The notes beneath the pieces are model-generated. The model saw nothing but the letters and a program-made list of their open reading frames with translations, did not search any database and was not told where the DNA came from. A program made the translations under genes and the position numbers. From the NCBI RefSeq assembly GCF_024228675.1, contig NZ_CP100461.1, forward strand, positions 1,116,001-1,180,000: DNA of 64,000 nt. Reading direction: 5' to 3'. Position 1 is the stretch's first letter. Each line of letters begins with the position of its first letter. Of the stretch, positions 13,273 to 53,677 are shown in pieces. The stretch comes from Salinigranum marinum. GTDB taxonomy: Archaea > Halobacteriota > Halobacteria > Halobacteriales > Haloferacaceae.

Positions 13273-14358
13273 ATGCCTCTCGAAAACGTGGATAGACGGA
13301 CGTTCGTCAAGGGAACCGGGGTCGTCGGCCTCGCTGGACTCGCCGGCTGTGCCGGTGGCGCCTCCGGTGGCGGAGGCGACGGCGGAAGCGGCGAAGACGC
13401 GACCAACGTCGGGATGGTGTACGCGACCGGCGGCCTCGGCGACGGCTCGTTCAACGACCAGGCCCAGCAGGGGGCGTTCCGCGCTCGCGACGAACTCGGC
13501 GTCCAGATCGGCGAGACCCAGCCGGACGAGGTGGCCCAGTTCAGCACGTTCCAACAGCAGTTCGCCCAGTCGTCGGACCCGACGTACGAACTCATCTGCT
13601 GCATCGGCTTCCTCCAGACCGACGCGCTGAGCGCCACGGCCGAGGAGTACCCCGACCAGAACTTCATGCTCGTCGACTCGGTCGTCGACGCGTCGAACGT
13701 CGCCAACTACGTGTTCGCCGAACACGAGGGGTCGTATCTGGTCGGGCAGATGGCGGGGCTGCTCACGACGATGGACTTCTCGGCCGGCGCGGGGTCGACG
13801 GCTCCCGACTCGTCGACCGTCGGCTTCGTCGGCGGCGTCGAGTCCGACCTCATCCGGAAGTTCCAGGCCGGCTACGAGGCCGGCGTCGCGGCCGCGAACG
13901 AGGATATCGAGGTGTTGACGAACTACACGGGGAGCTTCAATGACCCCGCCGCGGGCAAGGAGGCGGCGCTCGCGATGTACAACAACGGCGCGGACGTCGT
14001 CTACCACGCCTCGGGCAACACCGGGACGGGCGTCTTCCAGGCGGCCCAGGAACAGAGCCGGTTCGCCATCGGCGTCGACCGCGACCAGTCCGTCACCAAG
14101 GACTCCTTCGCGGACGTCATCCTCGCCAGCATGGTCAAGCGCGTCGACACCGCCGTGTACGACGCCATCGAGTCGATCGTCAACGACGAGTTCCAGGGAG
14201 GGAGCACGGTCACGCTCGGCCTCGACGCCGAGGGCGTCGCCGCCGTCTACGGCTCCGAACTCGGCAGCGAACTCCCCCAAGAGGTCACGGACGCAGTCAC
14301 CGCCTCCCGGGAGTCGATCATCGCCGGCGACGTGTCGGTGCCGACCAGCCCGCAGTAA
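13273..14358 (+). CDS. BMP family ABC transporter substrate-binding lipoprotein
   Basis: This 361-residue extracellular protein has a Tat-type signal (RR at 8-9) and a lipobox ending at Cys26, then a Gly/Ser linker. The mature part is a Med/BMP (PnrA-like) binding protein: GMVYATGGLGDGSFNDQAQQG near 47-67 is the family's hallmark, followed by VGFVGGVES near 187 and VVYHASGNTGTGVFQAAQ near 246. BMP proteins mostly bind purine or other nucleosides and hand them to a RbsA-like ATPase and two permeases; those genes lie at 17156-21043 in the same direction, beyond a lower-GC insertion. The original operon therefore seems to have been split. Confidence 0.9.
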   Translation: MPLENVDRRTFVKGTGVVGLAGLAGCAGGASGGGGDGGSGEDATNVGMVYATGGLGDGSFNDQAQQGAFRARDELGVQIGETQPDEVAQFSTFQQQFAQSSDPTYELICCIGFLQTDALSATAEEYPDQNFMLVDSVVDASNVANYVFAEHEGSYLVGQMAGLLTTMDFSAGAGSTAPDSSTVGFVGGVESDLIRKFQAGYEAGVAAANEDIEVLTNYTGSFNDPAAGKEAALAMYNNGADVVYHASGNTGTGVFQAAQEQSRFAIGVDRDQSVTKDSFADVILASMVKRVDTAVYDAIESIVNDEFQGGSTVTLGLDAEGVAAVYGSELGSELPQEVTDAVTASRESIIAGDVSVPTSPQ

Positions 14359-14471
14359 GGCCGAGTCCGAGGCGGACGCCGACCGTTACCGGTTTCTCGA
14401 GGAGATGGTGGCCCGTACCGAACCCTTGTTTCGTAGGTATCGACTCTTCGAGAAGGAGTCGGTTGGACCCG

Positions 14472-14492
14472 AGCGTCAGGAGACCTGACGCT
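14472..14492. repeat. perfect 9-bp inverted repeat with 3-base loop
   Basis: AGCGTCAGG and CCTGACGCT flank AGA. It lies 114 bases after the BMP gene stop, at the edge of the lower-GC block. No T-run follows directly, so a terminator role is weak; it may be a remnant of a mobile element end. Confidence 0.5.
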
Positions 14493-14580
14493 GTTGATTC
14501 CGTCGTACCCTGTCAGAACCAGCCTGCTGGACACCGAGGTCGAGTCGGTCAGTCTGGATACTGGTGGATGCTACTCCGTT

Positions 14581-14739
14581 TCACTCCGTAAGCAGAGCCA
14601 GCAGTCCGAAACGTGAGTTAATTCTCCGCCTGTCGAAACTCTGGTTGGTACGCGACGAGTCCGTCCCCCCGTCGAATGCACGCCGATGCACCTCGTAGAC
14701 AGCATCAGCATCGCCTGCAGTAAACGGTCGCATCTGCAT
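14581..14739 (-). pseudogene. possible N-terminal remnant of a GNAT acetyltransferase
   Basis: The minus-strand ORF starts MQMRPFTAGDADAVYEVHRR, which resembles the first strand and helix of GNAT N-acetyltransferases (MxxRPxTxxDAxAVxxVHR). After residue 24 the similarity fades into Ser/Arg-rich sequence and it stops at 52 residues, far short of the usual 140-160. No acetyl-CoA binding loop is present. It is best read as the decayed end of a gene, but a match this short could be chance. Confidence 0.35.
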
Positions 14740-15041
14740 GAACCGTTCTCTCGTATTGGAGGATGGCTCCGCACAGCAAGAACTCCTCGAATCTGCACGG
14801 TGCTGATTCCCGTCCCCGGTCGGCAATTCCGCCAGTCGCTCAGTTGATCGGTAGCGACCGACTCGCGCTTCGTGTTCGGCACCAGTTGAACGACCCTCAG
14901 CGTCCAGTCAGAACCCGTGTGACCGATACAGAGGCTCTAGCGGGTGCGGGAGACGACCCGCAGAATACGGAGAGCGTCTTCAGCACGCAAACGCCGGTAC
15001 CCCGCTGCGTTCCCCATGAGTTGGCTTCGGAGAAACGACTC

Positions 15042-16409
15042 TCACTCGTCCACGTCGTCCCTGGCGTGAATCTTAGCCTGTTCGCGAGCACTGGGATTGA
15101 CCGACTCTTTGAACGGAACCTTCGCCAGCGTCGCATAGACGGGGTCGCCGGACTCCTCGGCGTACTCGTCCGGGAGATGTACCTCGAACTCCAGGTCGAG
15201 GTCCGCGTCGTATATCGAGTCGTCGAGCGGGACGTCGGTTGCGGCCTGCAGCGTCGCCGCTGGCACGAACCCGAGGCCGATGTTGGCCTCGAGGTCCGGA
15301 TTCCAGCCCGCCGACGTCAGGTAGCCACATTCGTCGCCCGTCTCCGGGTCCGAGATGAGCCAGAAGTCCGAGGCCCACTCCAGAATCGGTTCGCCTGCCA
15401 TTTTCAGGCCGACCAGTTTGTGCGTGAACGGGAACTCGCCGTTTTCGATGGCTTCCTTCTGGCGTTCCAGTTCGGCTTTGCCGACGTAGTCCGCGTCCTT
15501 GTCGTCGGGGACCTGATAGCCGAGATTGACCTGGAACGGCGACGTCTCGTGGTCCATGTCCTGCCCCAACGACAGGATTCCGGCCGCGATCCGTCGACGA
15601 CCGTTAACTGGCGTCGCGGCACCGCCGTGACCTTTGACCGTTTCGAGCACCGGCTCCCACACTGCTTCGGCGTTCGTCGTCGCCTCGCGGACGTATATCT
15701 CGAACCCCGCCTCTCCGGAGAAGCCCGTTTGGCTCACCAACACCGGGACGCCGTTGATCGTCGCGTCCAACAATCCGTAGTACGGAACGTCTTCGACCGC
15801 GTCGTCGATGAGCGACTCGATCACATCGGGCGATTTCGGGCCCTGAACCTGCATCGGCGAGACGTCGATCTCGTCGATGTCGACCTCGAAGTCGTTCCCA
15901 ACCGTGACCCCTTGCAACCACTGTAGCAGGTCCGAATCGGCGATGGAGAACCAGAACTCGTCGTCGTCGGGTCGCAACAAGACGAAGTCGTTGAGGATGC
16001 CGCCGTCCTCGTTGCAGCAAATGGCGTACTTGCCACGCATCGGCTCGATGTCGGTGGCGTCCCGCGTGATGACGTAGTCGACGAACGCCTCGGCGTCGGG
16101 CCCCTCGACACGAATCTGGCGCTCGACCGCGACGTCCCACAGCGCTACGTGGTTGACCAGCAGCTCGTACTCGGCTTCCGAACCGCCGTCTTCGGGGTCG
16201 ATGTACGCCCGAGGGTGGTACATGTGGTTGTACACGGTCGCCTCGTGACAGCCTTCCTCGACGGAGAGGTGCCAGAACGGTGACTTCCGGACCCGGTTCG
16301 AGATCACGAGGTCGATGTCTGCGTCGCCCGTTTGGCGCAGATTTCGGGGAACGGTGCGATCCGACTGGTCGACGCTGGGGTGGTTCGGATTGCGTTCGTT
16401 TTCAGACAT
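15042..16409 (-). CDS. GcvT-family methyltransferase, dimethylsulfoniopropionate demethylase (DmdA)-like
   Basis: The 455-residue protein belongs to the aminomethyltransferase (GcvT) folate-binding family. Its N-terminus, RVRKSPFWHLSVEEGC then ATVYNHMYHPRAY, is close to the DmdA pattern (SRRxRxTPF ... xxVYNHM), and it keeps LVNHVALWDVAVERQIRVEG, QVQGPKSPDV, SQTGFSGEAGFEIYV and a C-terminal barrel. DmdA transfers a methyl group from dimethylsulfoniopropionate to tetrahydrofolate; related members demethylate glycine betaine derivatives or aromatic ethers, so the substrate is a guess. It is about 85 residues longer than bacterial DmdA, mainly from an N-terminal tail and C-terminal insertions. 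It probably shares a transcript with the small ORF just upstream and lies in a lower-GC block inside the BMP transporter locus, suggesting acquisition. Confidence 0.75.
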   Translation of the reverse strand: MSENERNPNHPSVDQSDRTVPRNLRQTGDADIDLVISNRVRKSPFWHLSVEEGCHEATVYNHMYHPRAYIDPEDGGSEAEYELLVNHVALWDVAVERQIRVEGPDAEAFVDYVITRDATDIEPMRGKYAICCNEDGGILNDFVLLRPDDDEFWFSIADSDLLQWLQGVTVGNDFEVDIDEIDVSPMQVQGPKSPDVIESLIDDAVEDVPYYGLLDATINGVPVLVSQTGFSGEAGFEIYVREATTNAEAVWEPVLETVKGHGGAATPVNGRRRIAAGILSLGQDMDHETSPFQVNLGYQVPDDKDADYVGKAELERQKEAIENGEFPFTHKLVGLKMAGEPILEWASDFWLISDPETGDECGYLTSAGWNPDLEANIGLGFVPAATLQAATDVPLDDSIYDADLDLEFEVHLPDEYAEESGDPVYATLAKVPFKESVNPSAREQAKIHARDDVDE

Positions 16410-16415
16410 TACTGT

Positions 16416-16565
16416 CTATTTCAGTGGTCCTACGCCGTGGTTGAACAGCCGTCCCCAGAGACGCTCGAACCGACTGGTTTCGACCGGCGAGGTGACACCG
16501 GCGGGGAGGTAGAGTTCAGGCTCGGTCGCTCTGTCTCGATCGTCGGCACGGGTTCTTGCTGCCAT
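16416..16565 (-). CDS. novel small protein (49 aa) upstream of the DmdA-like gene
   Basis: Reading the minus strand from the ATG at 16565 gives 49 residues beginning MAARTRADDRDRATEPELYL and ending in RLFNHGVGPLK, with the stop six bases before the DmdA-like ATG. A clear TATAAATAG box (16619-16627) lies 54-62 bases upstream, predicting a leader of about 30 bases. Promoter, short leader, ORF and tight spacing together make it a likely translated gene and the first of a two-gene operon. It has no membrane segment, Cys or known motif: an Arg/Asp-rich N-terminus, then a hydrophobic/aromatic stretch that could bind a partner. It may instead be only a leader peptide. Confidence 0.5.
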   Translation of the reverse strand: MAARTRADDRDRATEPELYLPAGVTSPVETSRFERLWGRLFNHGVGPLK

Positions 16566-16618
16566 ACGGCCCAGTGGACGACCCGTGACCACATCGGTTT
16601 GCAGCTTATTCGTATAAT

Positions 16619-16627
16619 CTATTTATA
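16619..16627 (-). promoter_or_regulatory. TATA box for the small ORF and DmdA-like gene
   Basis: On the minus strand the sequence is TATAAATAG preceded by CCGG, a strong archaeal TATA element. It predicts transcription starting near 16595 and running into 16565-15042. Confidence 0.65.
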
Positions 16628-17123
16628 CCGGGTTCGGAGGAATCCGTGGATTCTTCACCCCGTCCGTACCTCGCTGGGTGAGAGCGGTGAGGCTGACGAG
16701 TGGCGAGCACCGAGGCGGCTGTCGTCACAGCACTGGTGTTCGGTTAACAGTATGAGTACTAGTCGGTGTCTGCGTGAACGGCCGACTTCGGTCGTCTGGA
16801 TACGTTGCAGACCACCCAAAGTCCGAGAGTTCGTCACACACAGCCGTAACCGAACACGGCTGATCGGCACAGAGAATGCCCCGAGAGAGCGTCGACACTC
16901 GCCGTCTTCGTTCTGAGTGTACCGTCGCTCCGACGAGTCGTGCGCTCGTTCTGTCCCTCCAGCGGCCACCGTACCACGGACTCACAGAGCAGCGCCCGAC
17001 TGCTGGATACGCGCCCTGTATTCAGCACGGGCTCTACAACCTCTCACGCGTCGAGGACTTCGATCGTATCAGCGTGCCAGAACTGTCAGTCGACGCGATA
17101 GATCGCTCGAAGCGAACCCGCGG
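16628..17123. other. 496-bp intergenic stretch without a supported gene
   Basis: From the minus-strand promoter to the promoter of the ABC ATPase gene no reading frame has haloarchaeal composition; short ORFs on both strands are rich in Arg, Ser and Cys. The composition is lower in GC than the flanking genes. I see no terminal inverted repeats of a known insertion sequence. It is probably the decayed other edge of the block inserted into the transporter locus. Confidence 0.55.
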
Positions 17124-17130
17124 GTTTAAA
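17124..17130 (+). promoter_or_regulatory. TATA-like box of the ABC ATPase operon
   Basis: GTTTAAA lies 26-32 bases before the ATG at 17156 and is the likely promoter for the three ABC genes. It means they are transcribed independently of the distant BMP gene. Confidence 0.55.
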
Positions 17131-17155: not shown

Positions 17156-18739
17156 ATGACTCTCGCCGTCCATCTCGACGGCATCACGAAACGGTTCCCC
17201 GGCGTGGTGGCCAACGACGAGGTCACCCTTCGGGTCGAGGAAGGCTCCGTCCACGCCCTCCTCGGCGAGAACGGCGCGGGGAAGACGACGCTGATGAACG
17301 TCCTGTACGGGCTGTACCAACCCACCGACGGCCGCGTCGTCGTCGACGGCACGGAGCGGGACTTCGACTCGCCGCGCGATGCGATCGACGCCGGCGTGGG
17401 GATGATCCACCAGCACTTCATGCTGGTCGACCCGATGACCGTCGCGGAGAACATCACGCTCGGCAACGAACCCCGCAAGTGGGGCGGCCTCGCCGTCGAC
17501 CGCGAGCAGGCGCGGCGAGAGGTGGCGGCGCTCTCCGATCGCTTCGGCTTCGACGTCGACCCCGATTCGCGGATCGAGGACGTCTCGGTCGGCGTCCAAC
17601 AGCGCGTGGAGATCCTCAAGGCGCTGTACCGCGGGGCCGACGTGCTCATCCTCGACGAGCCCACCGCGGTGCTCACCCCGCAGGAGGTCGAGGAACTGTT
17701 CGCCGTCTTCGAGGAACTCACCGCACAGGGGAAGACGATCGTCTTCATCAGCCACAAGCTGAGCGAGGCGATGCACGCCGCCGACGAGATCACCGTCCTC
17801 CGCGACGGCGTGAACGTCGGGACCGTTCGGGGTGACGAGACGACGAGAGAGGAGCTGGCCGAGCTGATGGTCGGCCGCGAGGTGATCCTCGACGTCGAGA
17901 AACGGCCTGCGAGCGCTGGGGAACGGACCCTCGGCGTCGAGGGATGCGTCGCCGAGGACGAACGCGGCGTCCGCGCCGTCGACGACGTCTCGTTCGACGT
18001 CCGCGCGGGCGAGGTGTTCGGGATCGCAGGCGTCGACGGCAACGGCCAGTCCGAACTCGTCGAGACGATCACCGGCCTCCGGACACCGGAGGCGGGCCGC
18101 ATCGTCTTCGACGCCGAGGAGATCACCGACTGGTCGCGGCGCGACCGCATCGACGCCGGGATGTCGTACGTCCCCGAGGACCGCCAGGAACGGGGGCTCG
18201 TCATGCCGTTCGACCTGGTCGAGAACGGCATGCTCGGCAGTCAACACCGCGCGCCCTTCGCGCGCTCGGGTCGGCTCGACTGGCCGGCCGCGCGCGACCA
18301 CGCCGAATCCGTCATCGAGCAGTACGACGTCCGACCGCCGACCGCCGACACGACCGCCGAATCGCTGTCGGGGGGGAACCAGCAGAAGTTCATCGTCGGT
18401 CGGGAGTTCGAGCGCGACCCGACGCTCGTCGTCGCGGCCCACCCCACCAGAGGCGTCGACGTCGGCTCCATCGAGTTCATCCACGAGCGCCTGCTCGACC
18501 TCCGCGAACGGGGCGTCGCCGTGCTCCTCGTCTCCTCGAAACTCGAGGAGGTCCAGGGCCTCTCCGACCGGCTCGCGGTGATGCACGACGGGACGATCAT
18601 GGACACGGTCGATCCGGCAGCCGTGACCGAAGAAGAGATCGGCCTCTTGATGGGCGGTGAGTACCCCGACGGGTGGGACGATCGGTCGGCCGAGGAGCGA
18701 CCGCCCGACGAAGTCGCGACGGACGGTGAGGGGCGATGA
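17156..18739 (+). CDS. ABC transporter ATPase, duplicated (RbsA/NupA-like), BMP-type importer
   Basis: The 527-residue protein has two fused ATPase domains, as in sugar and nucleoside importers. Domain 1 has Walker A GENGAGKTT (37-45), a signature SVGVQQR (about 144-150) and Walker B LILDEPT (about 164-170). Domain 2 has a degenerate Walker A (GIAGVDGNGQSEL near 287) and a canonical LSGGNQQK (about 402). One intact and one altered site is normal for this family. It powers the permeases encoded directly downstream (4-bp ATGA overlap) for import of nucleosides or similar ligands delivered by a BMP lipoprotein, presumably that at 13273. Confidence 0.9.
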   Translation: MTLAVHLDGITKRFPGVVANDEVTLRVEEGSVHALLGENGAGKTTLMNVLYGLYQPTDGRVVVDGTERDFDSPRDAIDAGVGMIHQHFMLVDPMTVAENITLGNEPRKWGGLAVDREQARREVAALSDRFGFDVDPDSRIEDVSVGVQQRVEILKALYRGADVLILDEPTAVLTPQEVEELFAVFEELTAQGKTIVFISHKLSEAMHAADEITVLRDGVNVGTVRGDETTREELAELMVGREVILDVEKRPASAGERTLGVEGCVAEDERGVRAVDDVSFDVRAGEVFGIAGVDGNGQSELVETITGLRTPEAGRIVFDAEEITDWSRRDRIDAGMSYVPEDRQERGLVMPFDLVENGMLGSQHRAPFARSGRLDWPAARDHAESVIEQYDVRPPTADTTAESLSGGNQQKFIVGREFERDPTLVVAAHPTRGVDVGSIEFIHERLLDLRERGVAVLLVSSKLEEVQGLSDRLAVMHDGTIMDTVDPAAVTEEEIGLLMGGEYPDGWDDRSAEERPPDEVATDGEGR

Positions 18740-19980
18740 GCGCGCGCGACGGCGTCGTGGCGGCGCTCGAACGGCTCGTCGGGGCCTCTCGGCTGGAGCG
18801 GGCGCTCATCTCGCTCGCCTCGCTCGCGCTCGCGATGGTCGTCGGGACGGGCATCATCCTCGTCTCGGGGCGGATGACGACCTGTTCGCCCGCGCAGGCG
18901 GCGTACTACCTCGGGATCAGTTTCTGTTACGACCCCGTCGTCGTCTACGACCGGCTGTTCCTCGGCGCGCTCGGCGACCCGCTTCGGGCTGGGTGGTCGC
19001 CGCTCAACAGCCAGCTCGCGGTGACGCTCCGCGAGACGACCGTCCTGATCTTTACCGGGCTGTCGGTCGCTATCGCGTTCCGCGCGGGCATCTTCAACAT
19101 CGGGACCCAGGGACAGCTCGTCGTCGGCGCGCTCGCGACAGGCCTGGGCGTGCTCTGGGCCTCCCCGCTCGTTTCGGGCGTCGTCGGGACCGTGCTCTTG
19201 ATCCCGCTCGGGCTCGCGATCGGCGGGACGTTCGGCGCGCTCTACGGCGCGATTCCGGGACTTCTGAAGGCGTACGCCGAGGCGAACGAGGTGATCACGA
19301 CGATCATGCTCAACTTCATCGCGACGGGCGTGACGCTGTATCTCGTCTCCGACGTGTTCAAAGACCCAAACAGCCAGGCGAACCAGACGGTCCCACTCCC
19401 GGAGTTCGCGAGCTTCCCCGCCCTCCTGTTCGACTCCTCGACCGACTTCTCGCTCGTCGCGCTCCTCGTCGGCGTCGTCGCGCTCTGGGTCCTCTACGTC
19501 CTCATCGAGCGGACGACGTTCGGCTACGACGTTCGAACATCGGGGCTCCAGCCCGAGGCCGCGGAGTACGGCGGGGTCGACGCCGGCCGGACGATCGTCG
19601 CCAGCATGATGCTCTCGGGTGCGCTCGGGGGGATCGGTGGCGCGATGTACGTGCTGATGATCCTCGGGAAGTTCCAGACCGGCGTCCCGGCGTACGGCTT
19701 CGACGGCATCACCGTCTCGATCCTCGCGGGCAACAACCCGCTCGGCGTGGGCTTCGCAGCCCTGTTGTTCGGCGTCCTCAAGAGCGGGACCACCGTAGTG
19801 CAGTTCGCGACCGACGTCCCACCCCAGCTCGTCGGGGTGCTCCGCGGGCTCATCATCCTCTTCGTCGCGATGCCGGAGTTCTTCCGGCTCGTCGGCCGTC
19901 GGTTCCTCGACGTCGGCGGCAGCGGCCCCGAGCCGGTCGCCACCGACGGCGGCCGAGCGGGGGGTGGGTCCGATGAGTGA
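18736..19980 (+). CDS. ABC transporter permease (BMP/nucleoside type) 1
   Basis: This 414-residue membrane protein has about ten hydrophobic helices and the family blocks VTLRETTVLIFTGLSVAIAFRAGIFNIG (near 95-122) and ANEVITTIMLNFIATG (near 183-198), with the EAA-like loop TSGLQPEAAEYGG near 266. It forms half of the transmembrane channel of the importer. It overlaps the ATPase gene by four bases (ATGA) and its stop overlaps the next permease, so the three are translationally coupled. Its C-terminus has a haloarchaeal Gly/Asp tail. Confidence 0.9.
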   Translation: MSARDGVVAALERLVGASRLERALISLASLALAMVVGTGIILVSGRMTTCSPAQAAYYLGISFCYDPVVVYDRLFLGALGDPLRAGWSPLNSQLAVTLRETTVLIFTGLSVAIAFRAGIFNIGTQGQLVVGALATGLGVLWASPLVSGVVGTVLLIPLGLAIGGTFGALYGAIPGLLKAYAEANEVITTIMLNFIATGVTLYLVSDVFKDPNSQANQTVPLPEFASFPALLFDSSTDFSLVALLVGVVALWVLYVLIERTTFGYDVRTSGLQPEAAEYGGVDAGRTIVASMMLSGALGGIGGAMYVLMILGKFQTGVPAYGFDGITVSILAGNNPLGVGFAALLFGVLKSGTTVVQFATDVPPQLVGVLRGLIILFVAMPEFFRLVGRRFLDVGGSGPEPVATDGGRAGGGSDE

Positions 19981-21043
19981 GCGGACGGTGTCGCAGGGGC
20001 GGCTCGCGGCGCTGTCCCCGCGAGCGATCACCGCCGCGGCCGCGATCGGCGCGCTCCTCGTCGTCTTCGTCGCCGGCTTCCTCGCCCCTGGCTCCGTCGC
20101 CGGGACGCTGGTGGAGATCCTCACCAGCGAGGGGACGCTCTCGTCGGCGCTCCGGCTCTCCGTGCCGATCGCGCTGGCGGCGCTCGGCGGCATCTTCTCC
20201 GAGAAAGCGGGCGTCATCAACATCGGCCTCGAGGGGCTGTTGATCATCTCGGCGTTCTCGGCGATCTACGTCGCCGACGTGACGGACGGGGTCTGGATCG
20301 GCTTCGCCGGCGGCGTCGTCGCCTCGATCCTCCTCGCGGGGCTGTTCGCGGTCGTCGTCATCGAGTTCCGCGCCGACCAGATCATCGCCGGGCTCGCGGT
20401 GTGGCTCATCGCGCTCGGCCTCGCCCCCTTCGCCTCGCAGGTCATCTACGGCCGGCCGAACTCGCCCAGCGTGTCGACGCCCGGCACGATCACGGTGCCC
20501 GTCCTGTCGGAGCTTCCGTTCTTCGGCGCGCTGTTCGACGCCTCGCCAACCGTCTACCTGATGTTCGTCGCCGTCGCCGCCTCGTGGTACCTGCTCAACC
20601 GGACGCGCTTCGGCCGGTGGGTGCGCGCCTCCGGGGAGAACCCCAAGGCGCTCGACACCGCCGGCGTGAGCGTCTCCCGCGTGCGCTACGCCGCCGTGCT
20701 CCTCTCGGGCCTCCTCGCGGGGATGGGCGGCGCGGCGCTGTCGCTCGACCTCGGGCAGTTCACGGGGAACGGCCCCACGATGGTCAACGGCAAGGGGTTC
20801 ATCGCCATCGTCGCGTACCTCTTCGGCAACTACAACCCGATCGGAGCGTTCCTCTCGACGCTCCTCTTCGCGGGGCTCGACGCGATGCAGACCGCCCTCC
20901 AGTTACAGAACGTCGGCGTGCCGAACCAGCTGATCCGGGTGCTCCCGTTCGTGACCGTCATCGTCGTCCTCGCGCTGGTCGGCCGGACGCGGATCCCCGA
21001 GGCCGCCGGGGAACACTACGAGTCGGGCGACGACAGCCGGTAA
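19973..21043 (+). CDS. ABC transporter permease (BMP/nucleoside type) 2
   Basis: The 356-residue membrane protein has about eight to nine helices. It begins MSERTVSQGRLAALSPR and carries SVPIALAALGGIFSEKAGVINIGLEGL near 65-91, the hallmark of the second BMP-type permease, plus the loop RASGENPKALDTAGV near 217. With permease 1 it makes the heterodimeric channel. I use the ATG at 19973, which overlaps the preceding stop by eight bases; an ATG nine bases earlier is possible. It is the last gene of the transporter unit. Confidence 0.9.
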   Translation: MSERTVSQGRLAALSPRAITAAAAIGALLVVFVAGFLAPGSVAGTLVEILTSEGTLSSALRLSVPIALAALGGIFSEKAGVINIGLEGLLIISAFSAIYVADVTDGVWIGFAGGVVASILLAGLFAVVVIEFRADQIIAGLAVWLIALGLAPFASQVIYGRPNSPSVSTPGTITVPVLSELPFFGALFDASPTVYLMFVAVAASWYLLNRTRFGRWVRASGENPKALDTAGVSVSRVRYAAVLLSGLLAGMGGAALSLDLGQFTGNGPTMVNGKGFIAIVAYLFGNYNPIGAFLSTLLFAGLDAMQTALQLQNVGVPNQLIRVLPFVTVIVVLALVGRTRIPEAAGEHYESGDDSR

Positions 21044-52021: not shown

Positions 52022-53677
52022 ATGGTAGGGACGACAGCCCAGACGTTACGACCGTTCCTGTGGCGGGCGGCGAAACTGTACCCCGACCGTGAGATCGTCT
52101 CGCGTACACACGAGGGGATCGATCGGACGACGTACGCGGCGTACGACCGTCGGGTGGCCCAACTCGCGAACGCGCTCGACGGGGTGGGGATCGACGACGG
52201 AGAGCGGGTCGCGACGTTCTGCTGGAACCACACCCGGCACTTCGAGACGTACTTCGCGGTCCCCTCCCGCGGATCACAGCTCCACACCATCAACCCCCTG
52301 TTGCCGGACCACCACGTCAAGTACATCGTCGAGAACGCCGCGGACAGACTCCTGTTCGTCGACCCGTCGCTCGTGGAGAAACTCGAGGGCGCGGCCGCAG
52401 AGGCCGACGGCGCGTTCGACACCGTCGAGCGGTTCGTCGTGATGGGGAGCGACGTGCCCGAGACGTCGCTCGACCCCGTGGTCGACTACGAGTCGTTCGT
52501 CGGGGGGCACGCGGAGACGTACGACTGGCCCGCGCTCGACGACGAGACGCCCGCCGGGATGTGTTACACATCGGGGACGACGGGCAAACCGAAAGGCGTC
52601 GAGTACAGCCAGGGGATGATGTGGGCGCACACGATGGGGATCCTCCCGGAGGCGGGGCTGGATTTCCGCGCCGACAGCGTCGTGATGCCCGTCGTGCCGA
52701 TGTTCCACGTGATGGCGTGGGGGTTCCCGTACGCGACGACGGCCGCCGGCGCGAAACACGTCTATCCGGGGCCCGCGCCCGACCCGGCCGACCTCGCCCG
52801 GCTCATCGAGACCGAGGGCGTGACGTTCTCGGCGGGCGTCCCCACCGTCTGGCTGGGTCTGCTCGAGTATCTCGAGGAGAACGAGGCGGACCTCTCGTCG
52901 CTCGAACGGGTCGCCATCGGCGGGGCCGCGGCACCGAAGTCGCTCGTCCGCACGTACGAGGAGGAGTACGACGTGCAGGTGGTGCACGCGTGGGGGATGA
53001 CCGAGACCTCGCCCGTCGCCGCCGTCGCCCACCTCAAACCGGGGATGGAGTCGTTGCCCCCCGAACGACGCGACGAGAAACGGGTCAAACAGGGGCTCGT
53101 GCTCCCCGGACTGGAGTTCAAAGTCATGAGCGACGAGGGCGAGGTGCCGTGGGACGGCGAGCAGTTCGGCGAGCTCTGGATCCGCGGGCCCTGGGTGACG
53201 ACGGAGTACTTCCGCCGCCCGGACGCCAACGAGACGGACTTCGCCGACGGGTGGCTGAAGACCGGTGACGTCGTCACCGTCGACCCCGACGGATACATCC
53301 AGATCGTCGACCGCGCGACGGACGTGATCAAGTCGGGCGGCGAGTGGATCTCCAGCCAGGAACTGGAGAACGCCATCATGGCTCACGACGACGTGGTCGA
53401 GGCGACCGTCATCGGCGTCCCACACGAGAAGTGGCAGGAGCGGCCGGTGGCGTTCGTGGTCCCGCGCGAGGGCGTCGGTGAGGGACCGCTCCGGAGCGAC
53501 ATCGCCGACCTGCTCGAAGGGGACTACCCGACGTGGTGGGTCCCCGACGACGTCGTCTACATCGACGCGGTGCCGAAGACCGCGACCGGGAAGTTCGACA
53601 AGAAGGTGCTCCGCGAGGAGTACGCCGATCACGACGTCGACGACGTGCCCGAGGGGGCCGCACCCGACGACGACTGA
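52022..53677 (+). CDS. long-chain/medium-chain acyl-CoA ligase (AMP-binding)
   Basis: The 551-residue enzyme activates carboxylic acids as CoA thioesters. Motifs: CYTSGTTGKPKGVEYSQ (A3, about 182-198), VVHAWGMTETSPV (A5, about 320), WLKTGDVVTVDPDGYIQIVDRATDVIKSGGEWIS (A7-A8, about 413-446) and PKTATGKFDKKVLR with catalytic Lys (A10). FCWNHTRHFETYFAVP near 64 is typical of medium/long-chain ligases. TATA-like ATCATTATGG at 51988-51997 is 25-34 bases before the ATG at 52022, so the gene is leaderless. It lies with acyl-CoA dehydrogenase in an apparent catabolic cluster. Confidence 0.87.
   Translation: MVGTTAQTLRPFLWRAAKLYPDREIVSRTHEGIDRTTYAAYDRRVAQLANALDGVGIDDGERVATFCWNHTRHFETYFAVPSRGSQLHTINPLLPDHHVKYIVENAADRLLFVDPSLVEKLEGAAAEADGAFDTVERFVVMGSDVPETSLDPVVDYESFVGGHAETYDWPALDDETPAGMCYTSGTTGKPKGVEYSQGMMWAHTMGILPEAGLDFRADSVVMPVVPMFHVMAWGFPYATTAAGAKHVYPGPAPDPADLARLIETEGVTFSAGVPTVWLGLLEYLEENEADLSSLERVAIGGAAAPKSLVRTYEEEYDVQVVHAWGMTETSPVAAVAHLKPGMESLPPERRDEKRVKQGLVLPGLEFKVMSDEGEVPWDGEQFGELWIRGPWVTTEYFRRPDANETDFADGWLKTGDVVTVDPDGYIQIVDRATDVIKSGGEWISSQELENAIMAHDDVVEATVIGVPHEKWQERPVAFVVPREGVGEGPLRSDIADLLEGDYPTWWVPDDVVYIDAVPKTATGKFDKKVLREEYADHDVDDVPEGAAPDDD

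Follow-up and report, generated by a model that had tools for sequence, protein, structure and literature searches.

The importer locus and its inserted block

The window studied here is a stretch of 64,000 nucleotides on the 4.0-Mb contig of the 4.9-Mb genome of Salinigranum marinum (genome G000, the host). It contains an ABC importer of the BMP/PnrA type, and between the binding-protein gene of this importer and its remaining genes lies a block of about 2.74 kb in which the only called gene encodes a protein of 455 amino acids. The close relatives of this protein, which show 80-96% identity to it, are referred to as clade A.

The importer is encoded on the plus strand. A BMP/PnrA-type substrate-binding lipoprotein (13273-14358; PF02608, 204 bits) forms the host side of the left junction, and the ATPase, with a tandem (double) ABC arrangement (17156-18739), forms that of the right junction; it is followed by two permeases (18736-19980 and 19973-21043), both matching PF02653 (BPD_transp_2). 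These are the components of the nucleoside-type BMP/PnrA importers, from which the host importer differs in being interrupted by an unrelated transcription unit.

As the original prediction had assumed, the importer genes are contiguous in most relatives. Binding-protein and ATPase genes are separated by 18-239 bp in 35 of the 41 genomes having both (median of all 41, 110 bp) and by more than 500 bp in six, three of which are Salinigranum. Using blastn against the congeners G001, G002 and G003 and other genomes, together with the table of spacers, we placed the block at about 14363-17102, with no strand assigned; it is not present at this spot in any relative examined. Congener G002 represents the empty site, where homology to the window ends at 14362 and restarts at about 17106, while on the right-hand side it restarts at 17103 in G001 and at 17113 in G003. 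The insert had been proposed to span 14359-17123, and a block does intervene there, but the last 20 or so bases of that span belong to the native promoter region of the ATPase gene.

The composition of this DNA is distinct, as had been noted from the letters. GC content falls to 0.611 across 14359-17123, the window as a whole having 0.690, and no lower value occurs in any of 245 stretches of this length. In the gene of the 455-residue protein, GC at third codon positions is 0.829, compared with 0.899 +/- 0.038 in genes whose products have 150 or more residues. This gene (15042-16409) lies on the minus strand, opposite to the importer. The edges of the block, noted earlier as degenerate, hold no intact gene. 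On the left (14363-14917, no strand assigned) there is non-coding or decayed DNA with a GC content of 0.59, which is not shared with the clade A cassettes of the congeners; a by-eye likeness of its longest minus-strand frame to the N-terminus of a GNAT protein was dropped because Pfam gave no match. The right edge carries a degenerate dispersed repeat, CCGTGCTGAATACAGNGNGCGTATC (16996-17061, minus strand), with partial copies in all of G000, G001, G002 and G003. The spread of this repeat over four Salinigranum genomes is a side observation, and it may possibly be the end of a mobile element. An insertion sequence or composite transposon was considered and rejected, since the block has no transposase gene and a search for a pair of inverted repeats bounding it found none.

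The same spacer is interrupted in three of the four Salinigranum genomes, by different DNA each time. In G001 the insert is 1.4 kb long and carries an alpha/beta hydrolase gene (L035:18007-19397), and in G003 it is about 0.7 kb long, with short direct repeats and no called gene (L038:9081-9784). The presence of some interruption in three of four congeners is what could be said for an ancestral block that was lost from the importer in the other genomes. However, the interrupting DNA is not the same in any two of them, and G001 and G003 carry clade A at loci unrelated to the importer; we give this explanation hardly any credence.

Upstream of the ATPase-permease operon there is a native TTTAAA promoter element (17125-17130, plus strand), conserved in all four congeners. 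The binding protein and the ATPase operon are two units, each separately transcribable, and since the element has been kept throughout the congeners it follows that the block fell between them. Two relatives from two other families, G037 and G042, hold a nucleoside hydrolase and a PfkB kinase in this very gap, which in G042 additionally contains a DeoC-family aldolase and other genes (L146:3031-7711 in G037; L145:3056-11542 in G042). The G042 proteins were identified by Pfam, and the G037 ones from the likeness of their starts to them. This gene context suggests that the importer takes up a nucleoside.

A nomadic gene of the Halobacteria

Clade A was found in Halobellus, Natronococcus, Halorubrum, Halogeometricum, Halobacterium, Halomicroarcula and other genera. 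Within Salinigranum it occupies three different loci in three genomes (G000, G001 and G003) and is missing from G002. In G001 it is flanked by fba and hbd, two genes that are direct neighbours in G002, and G000 has no clade A gene there; in G003 it is found at yet another locus. Eight further genomes among 60 relatives have clade A, and in none of them does it lie between these importer genes. Moreover, apart from the regulator described below, any given neighbouring gene family is found at four clade A loci at most. What moves appears in the window as a cassette core (14918-16825, minus strand) comprising the clade A gene, about 120 bp downstream and 290-416 bp upstream of it, and this core shows 92-94% DNA identity to the cassettes at the other loci in G001 and G003.

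The haloarchaeal families are intermixed in the clade A tree. At fourfold degenerate sites, the clade A gene of the window is 88% identical to that of S. salinum, 78-81% to those of Halobellus rarus, H. inordinatus and H. rufus, 77% to that of Halobacterium and 71-75% to those of Natronococcus. The importer genes, by comparison, show 63-73% identity at such sites within the genus and 49-62% beyond it. The silent sites of clade A have thus diverged less between families than those of the importer typically have between congeners, and this pattern is best explained by horizontal transfer of clade A between families of Halobacteria. Taken with its changing position, clade A is shown to be a nomadic gene, which has moved between loci as well as between families. 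Decayed copies also exist: one consists of two overlapping frames (G035:C5:185258-186585), and another is a 38-residue match directly ahead of the regulator gene treated below (G027:C4:348725-348841). As a separate observation, the Natronococcus cassettes (L061:11410-11529 and L062:11410-11529) are followed by TTAC and then by sequence with a short palindrome, CACGACTTCAGTCGTGG, which by eye resembles an end of the IS200/IS605 type.

The transcription unit has its own TATA box (16620-16627, minus strand), in agreement with the original prediction, and in almost every clade A relative examined an upstream element aligns with it. Between this box and the clade A gene there is an open reading frame of 49 codons (16416-16565, minus strand) which ends 6 nt before the clade A start. 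All 24 relatives compared have its ATG and 23 have an open frame, with the stop also retained in most; no Pfam match was found for it. Mismatches are spread almost evenly over the three codon positions (4086/3946/4622), with no codon-position bias, so that we regard the frame as probably, but not firmly, coding; it is possible that it specifies a small or leader protein. A riboswitch upstream of clade A was rejected, Rfam having given no match above the gathering score, as was a structured leader, for which RNAalifold found no common structure in 24 leaders.

In many genomes, a gene encoding a 222-residue regulator of the BAT/HTH-10 type is located downstream of clade A. An orthologue of this regulator is present in all nine clade A genomes and in only two of the 51 others (60 genomes; Fisher p = 4e-9), and one of these two has a clade A remnant just upstream of the regulator. 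In the host the regulator gene is unlinked (C1:2579693), at a distance of 1.45 Mb from the cassette. It is unlinked in G001 and G003 too, where a copy of the clade A leader (72-78%) is placed upstream of it, which would fit a former position of clade A between this leader copy and the regulator.

The 455-residue protein, its paralogue and their likely chemistry

The protein encoded by 15042-16409 has PF01571 (GCV_T) and PF08669 (GCV_T_C) as its sole domains and is predicted to be a DmdA-like folate-dependent demethylase. The best NCBIfam model is that of dimethylsulfoniopropionate (DMSP) demethylase, NF009133, with 241.7 bits against a curated equivalog cut-off of 410, and the host genome has no NF009133 match above the cut-off. 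Models of GcvT score lower, with 158 and 138 bits; for TIGR00528, the 138.5 bits compare with a cut-off of 235.85. A paralogous group, clade B, shows about 70% identity to clade A. When a profile was built from 30 proteins of both clades, its best match in the PDB was DmdA (3TFH), in an alignment that takes in the N-terminal part, which the GcvT profile matches do not reach. In the tree, clades A and B are grouped with DmdA and apart from the host GcvT and from dimethylglycine oxidase (DMGO), with support of 99/99 but across very long branches.

These data bear directly on whether the gene could be a displaced or duplicated native GcvT. The two share their Pfam domains and the folate-binding core, and the protein is 31% identical to the GcvT of the host; but the host retains that GcvT at C1:523681, the two groups are well separated in the tree and the scores fall short of the GcvT cut-offs, which makes this origin extremely improbable. 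The original prediction had named two outcomes contrary to its proposal, the same gene order with matching GC in all related genomes and a place in the native GcvT clade, and neither was found. With the empty site of G002, the low silent-site divergence across families and the position on the DmdA side of the tree, the acquisition of a GcvT/DmdA-like enzyme that it proposed is supported.

The closest known relative by sequence and structure is DmdA of Pelagibacter and Ruegeria, which clade A resembles in fold, domain order and an N-terminal R-x-R...YNHM region. The folate-site residues E237 and Y239, corresponding to E204 and Y206 of 3TFH, are invariant in clades A and B. The identity to DmdA is however only about 26%, and unlike DmdA, clade A is archaeal and forms a single-gene cassette with an HTH-10 regulator. 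Furthermore, a tryptophan of DmdA, W171, has been reported as specific for DMSP (PMC7487153), and its distance from E204 and Y206 led us to equate it with W197 of 3TFH; at this position all 30 clade A and B proteins have a phenylalanine (F230). Phenylalanine has been reported there also for the clade of dimethylglycine oxidase and dehydrogenase (PMC7487153), enzymes (1PJ5, 4PAB) with a folate domain homologous to that of clade A. Clade A lacks the FAD-dependent oxidoreductase domain of dimethylglycine oxidase, and the two DMGO-like proteins of the host are encoded by separate genes on C2.

From its sequence, then, the 455-residue protein probably resembles DmdA in the folate part of its reaction, without being filed as DmdA. 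We consider it unlikely that clade A is a genuine haloarchaeal DMSP demethylase moving as a single gene, even though the best named model is that of this enzyme, the profile prefers 3TFH and the ND, SIADSD and YNHM motifs are common to both. The score, far under the cut-off, and the replacement of the DMSP-specific tryptophan make DMSP in particular a doubtful and disfavoured substrate; nor is there a recurrent gene family of the dmdB, dmdC or dmdD type beside clade A. The window does contain an acyl-CoA ligase gene (52022-53677, plus strand), beside one for an acyl-CoA dehydrogenase. Among NCBIfam models the ligase matches that of methylthiopropionyl-CoA ligase best (576.7 bits). It was rejected as a partner in a DMSP pathway, being below the cut-off of 822 and 35 kb away from clade A.

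The gene context of clade B is more informative about the chemistry. Clade B and an MTHFR-like gene are present in exactly the same 20 of 60 genomes (p = 2e-16), and wherever a clade B locus shows the two together (42 loci), the distance between them does not exceed four genes. Many of these loci also hold genes for DMGO, serine/threonine dehydratase, FolD, GlyA, Fhs and BCCT transporters. The host cluster (G000:C2:122641-140101; L046 and L047) comprises a BCCT transporter, a serine/threonine dehydratase, two DMGO-like proteins, Fhs, FolD, clade B and the MTHFR-like protein. Clade A occurs within genomes having clade B in eight of nine cases (p = 4e-4), G003 being the exception. MTHFR would be needed to oxidise 5-methyl-tetrahydrofolate (5-methyl-THF), which DmdA-type reactions yield, unlike those of GcvT and DMGO. 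The products of the DmdA and GcvT reactions are described in PMC5395565. The match between clade B and MTHFR, along with the DMGO and folate neighbours, points to a folate-dependent demethylation of a betaine-like compound yielding 5-methyl-THF. A route leading from betaine through dimethylglycine, sarcosine, glycine and serine to pyruvate, with the methyl groups oxidised via folate, would draw on every one of these genes.

Bacteria are known to have corrinoid, Rieske and BHMT routes (PMC12478193). A survey of 2011 described DMGO-like genes near BCCT transporters in haloarchaea, raised betaine use only as a possibility and gave no enzyme for the first step (PMC3102087). Searching a paper library for DmdA-like proteins in haloarchaea gave nothing relevant. 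We are inclined to propose, tentatively and with rather more doubt than conviction, that haloarchaea have a family of cobalamin-independent, THF-dependent demethylases whose substrate is glycine betaine or an onium compound like it, and which take the first step before the dimethylglycine-oxidase genes. The core form of this family would be clade B, accompanied by MTHFR, and clade A would be a nomadic, regulator-paired paralogue with a small, conserved upstream open reading frame, spreading singly through the class.

The place of the cassette and its meaning

The original prediction suggested that a demethylation module had been acquired next to an importer, which can be read as a functional module in which DMSP or a betaine would be brought in by the BMP importer and demethylated by the DmdA-like enzyme. 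In favour of such coupling are the physical adjacency of the genes in the host genome and the place of the enzyme in the DmdA branch. This adjacency, however, is unique to the host, as the other clade A genes lie elsewhere; enzyme and importer are on opposite strands with separate promoters, clade B has transporters of the betaine-type BCCT family nearby instead, and the DMSP-specific tryptophan is, as said, a phenylalanine. Given that each half of the importer keeps its promoter and that relatives hold nucleoside-catabolic genes in the same gap, a coupling between importer and demethylase is not supported, and we judge the module to be very improbable.

We consider it likely that the locus records the lineage-specific arrival of a nomadic haloarchaeal cassette, encoding a folate demethylase, between the separately promoted halves of a BMP-type and probably nucleoside importer, with its placement being incidental. 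The cassette, consisting of the TATA element, the 49-codon frame and the gene of the 455-residue GcvT-superfamily protein, would have arrived in the importer spacer. Its protein may demethylate a small methylated onium substrate, more likely a betaine-like compound than DMSP, with tetrahydrofolate accepting the methyl group to give 5-methyl-THF. The host pathway of clade B, MTHFR, FolD and Fhs, encoded on another replicon, could then oxidise the 5-methyl-THF. The genomes with the cassette also carry its cognate HTH-10 regulator, which in the host is unlinked but co-inherited. The position of the cassette inside the importer would imply no shared function.

Several observations weigh against this explanation. 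The insertion bears none of the usual marks of transposition, with neither a transposase nor terminal inverted repeats, and no duplication of the target site. G003 has clade A with neither clade B nor an MTHFR homologue, so clade A does not always feed the clade B/MTHFR pathway. The grouping with DmdA joins very long branches in a tree that held one DmdA, and the AlphaFold model is weak (pLDDT, a confidence score, of 62), for which reason its best PDB match, again DmdA and in accord with the sequence, was not relied on. Finally, the nucleoside substrate of the importer is suggested by the gene context of two relatives only.

Annotation by domains alone would label the proteins of clades A and B as glycine-cleavage T-proteins. 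The coincidence of clade B and the MTHFR-like gene in 60 genomes offers instead a concrete candidate for a corrinoid-free step by which methyl groups may enter the folate pool, and the clade A gene inserted in the host suggests that the same chemistry would also travel as a single-gene cassette with an unlinked, co-inherited regulator. The importer case is a caution, in that adjacency arising from a recent insertion is no evidence of shared function.

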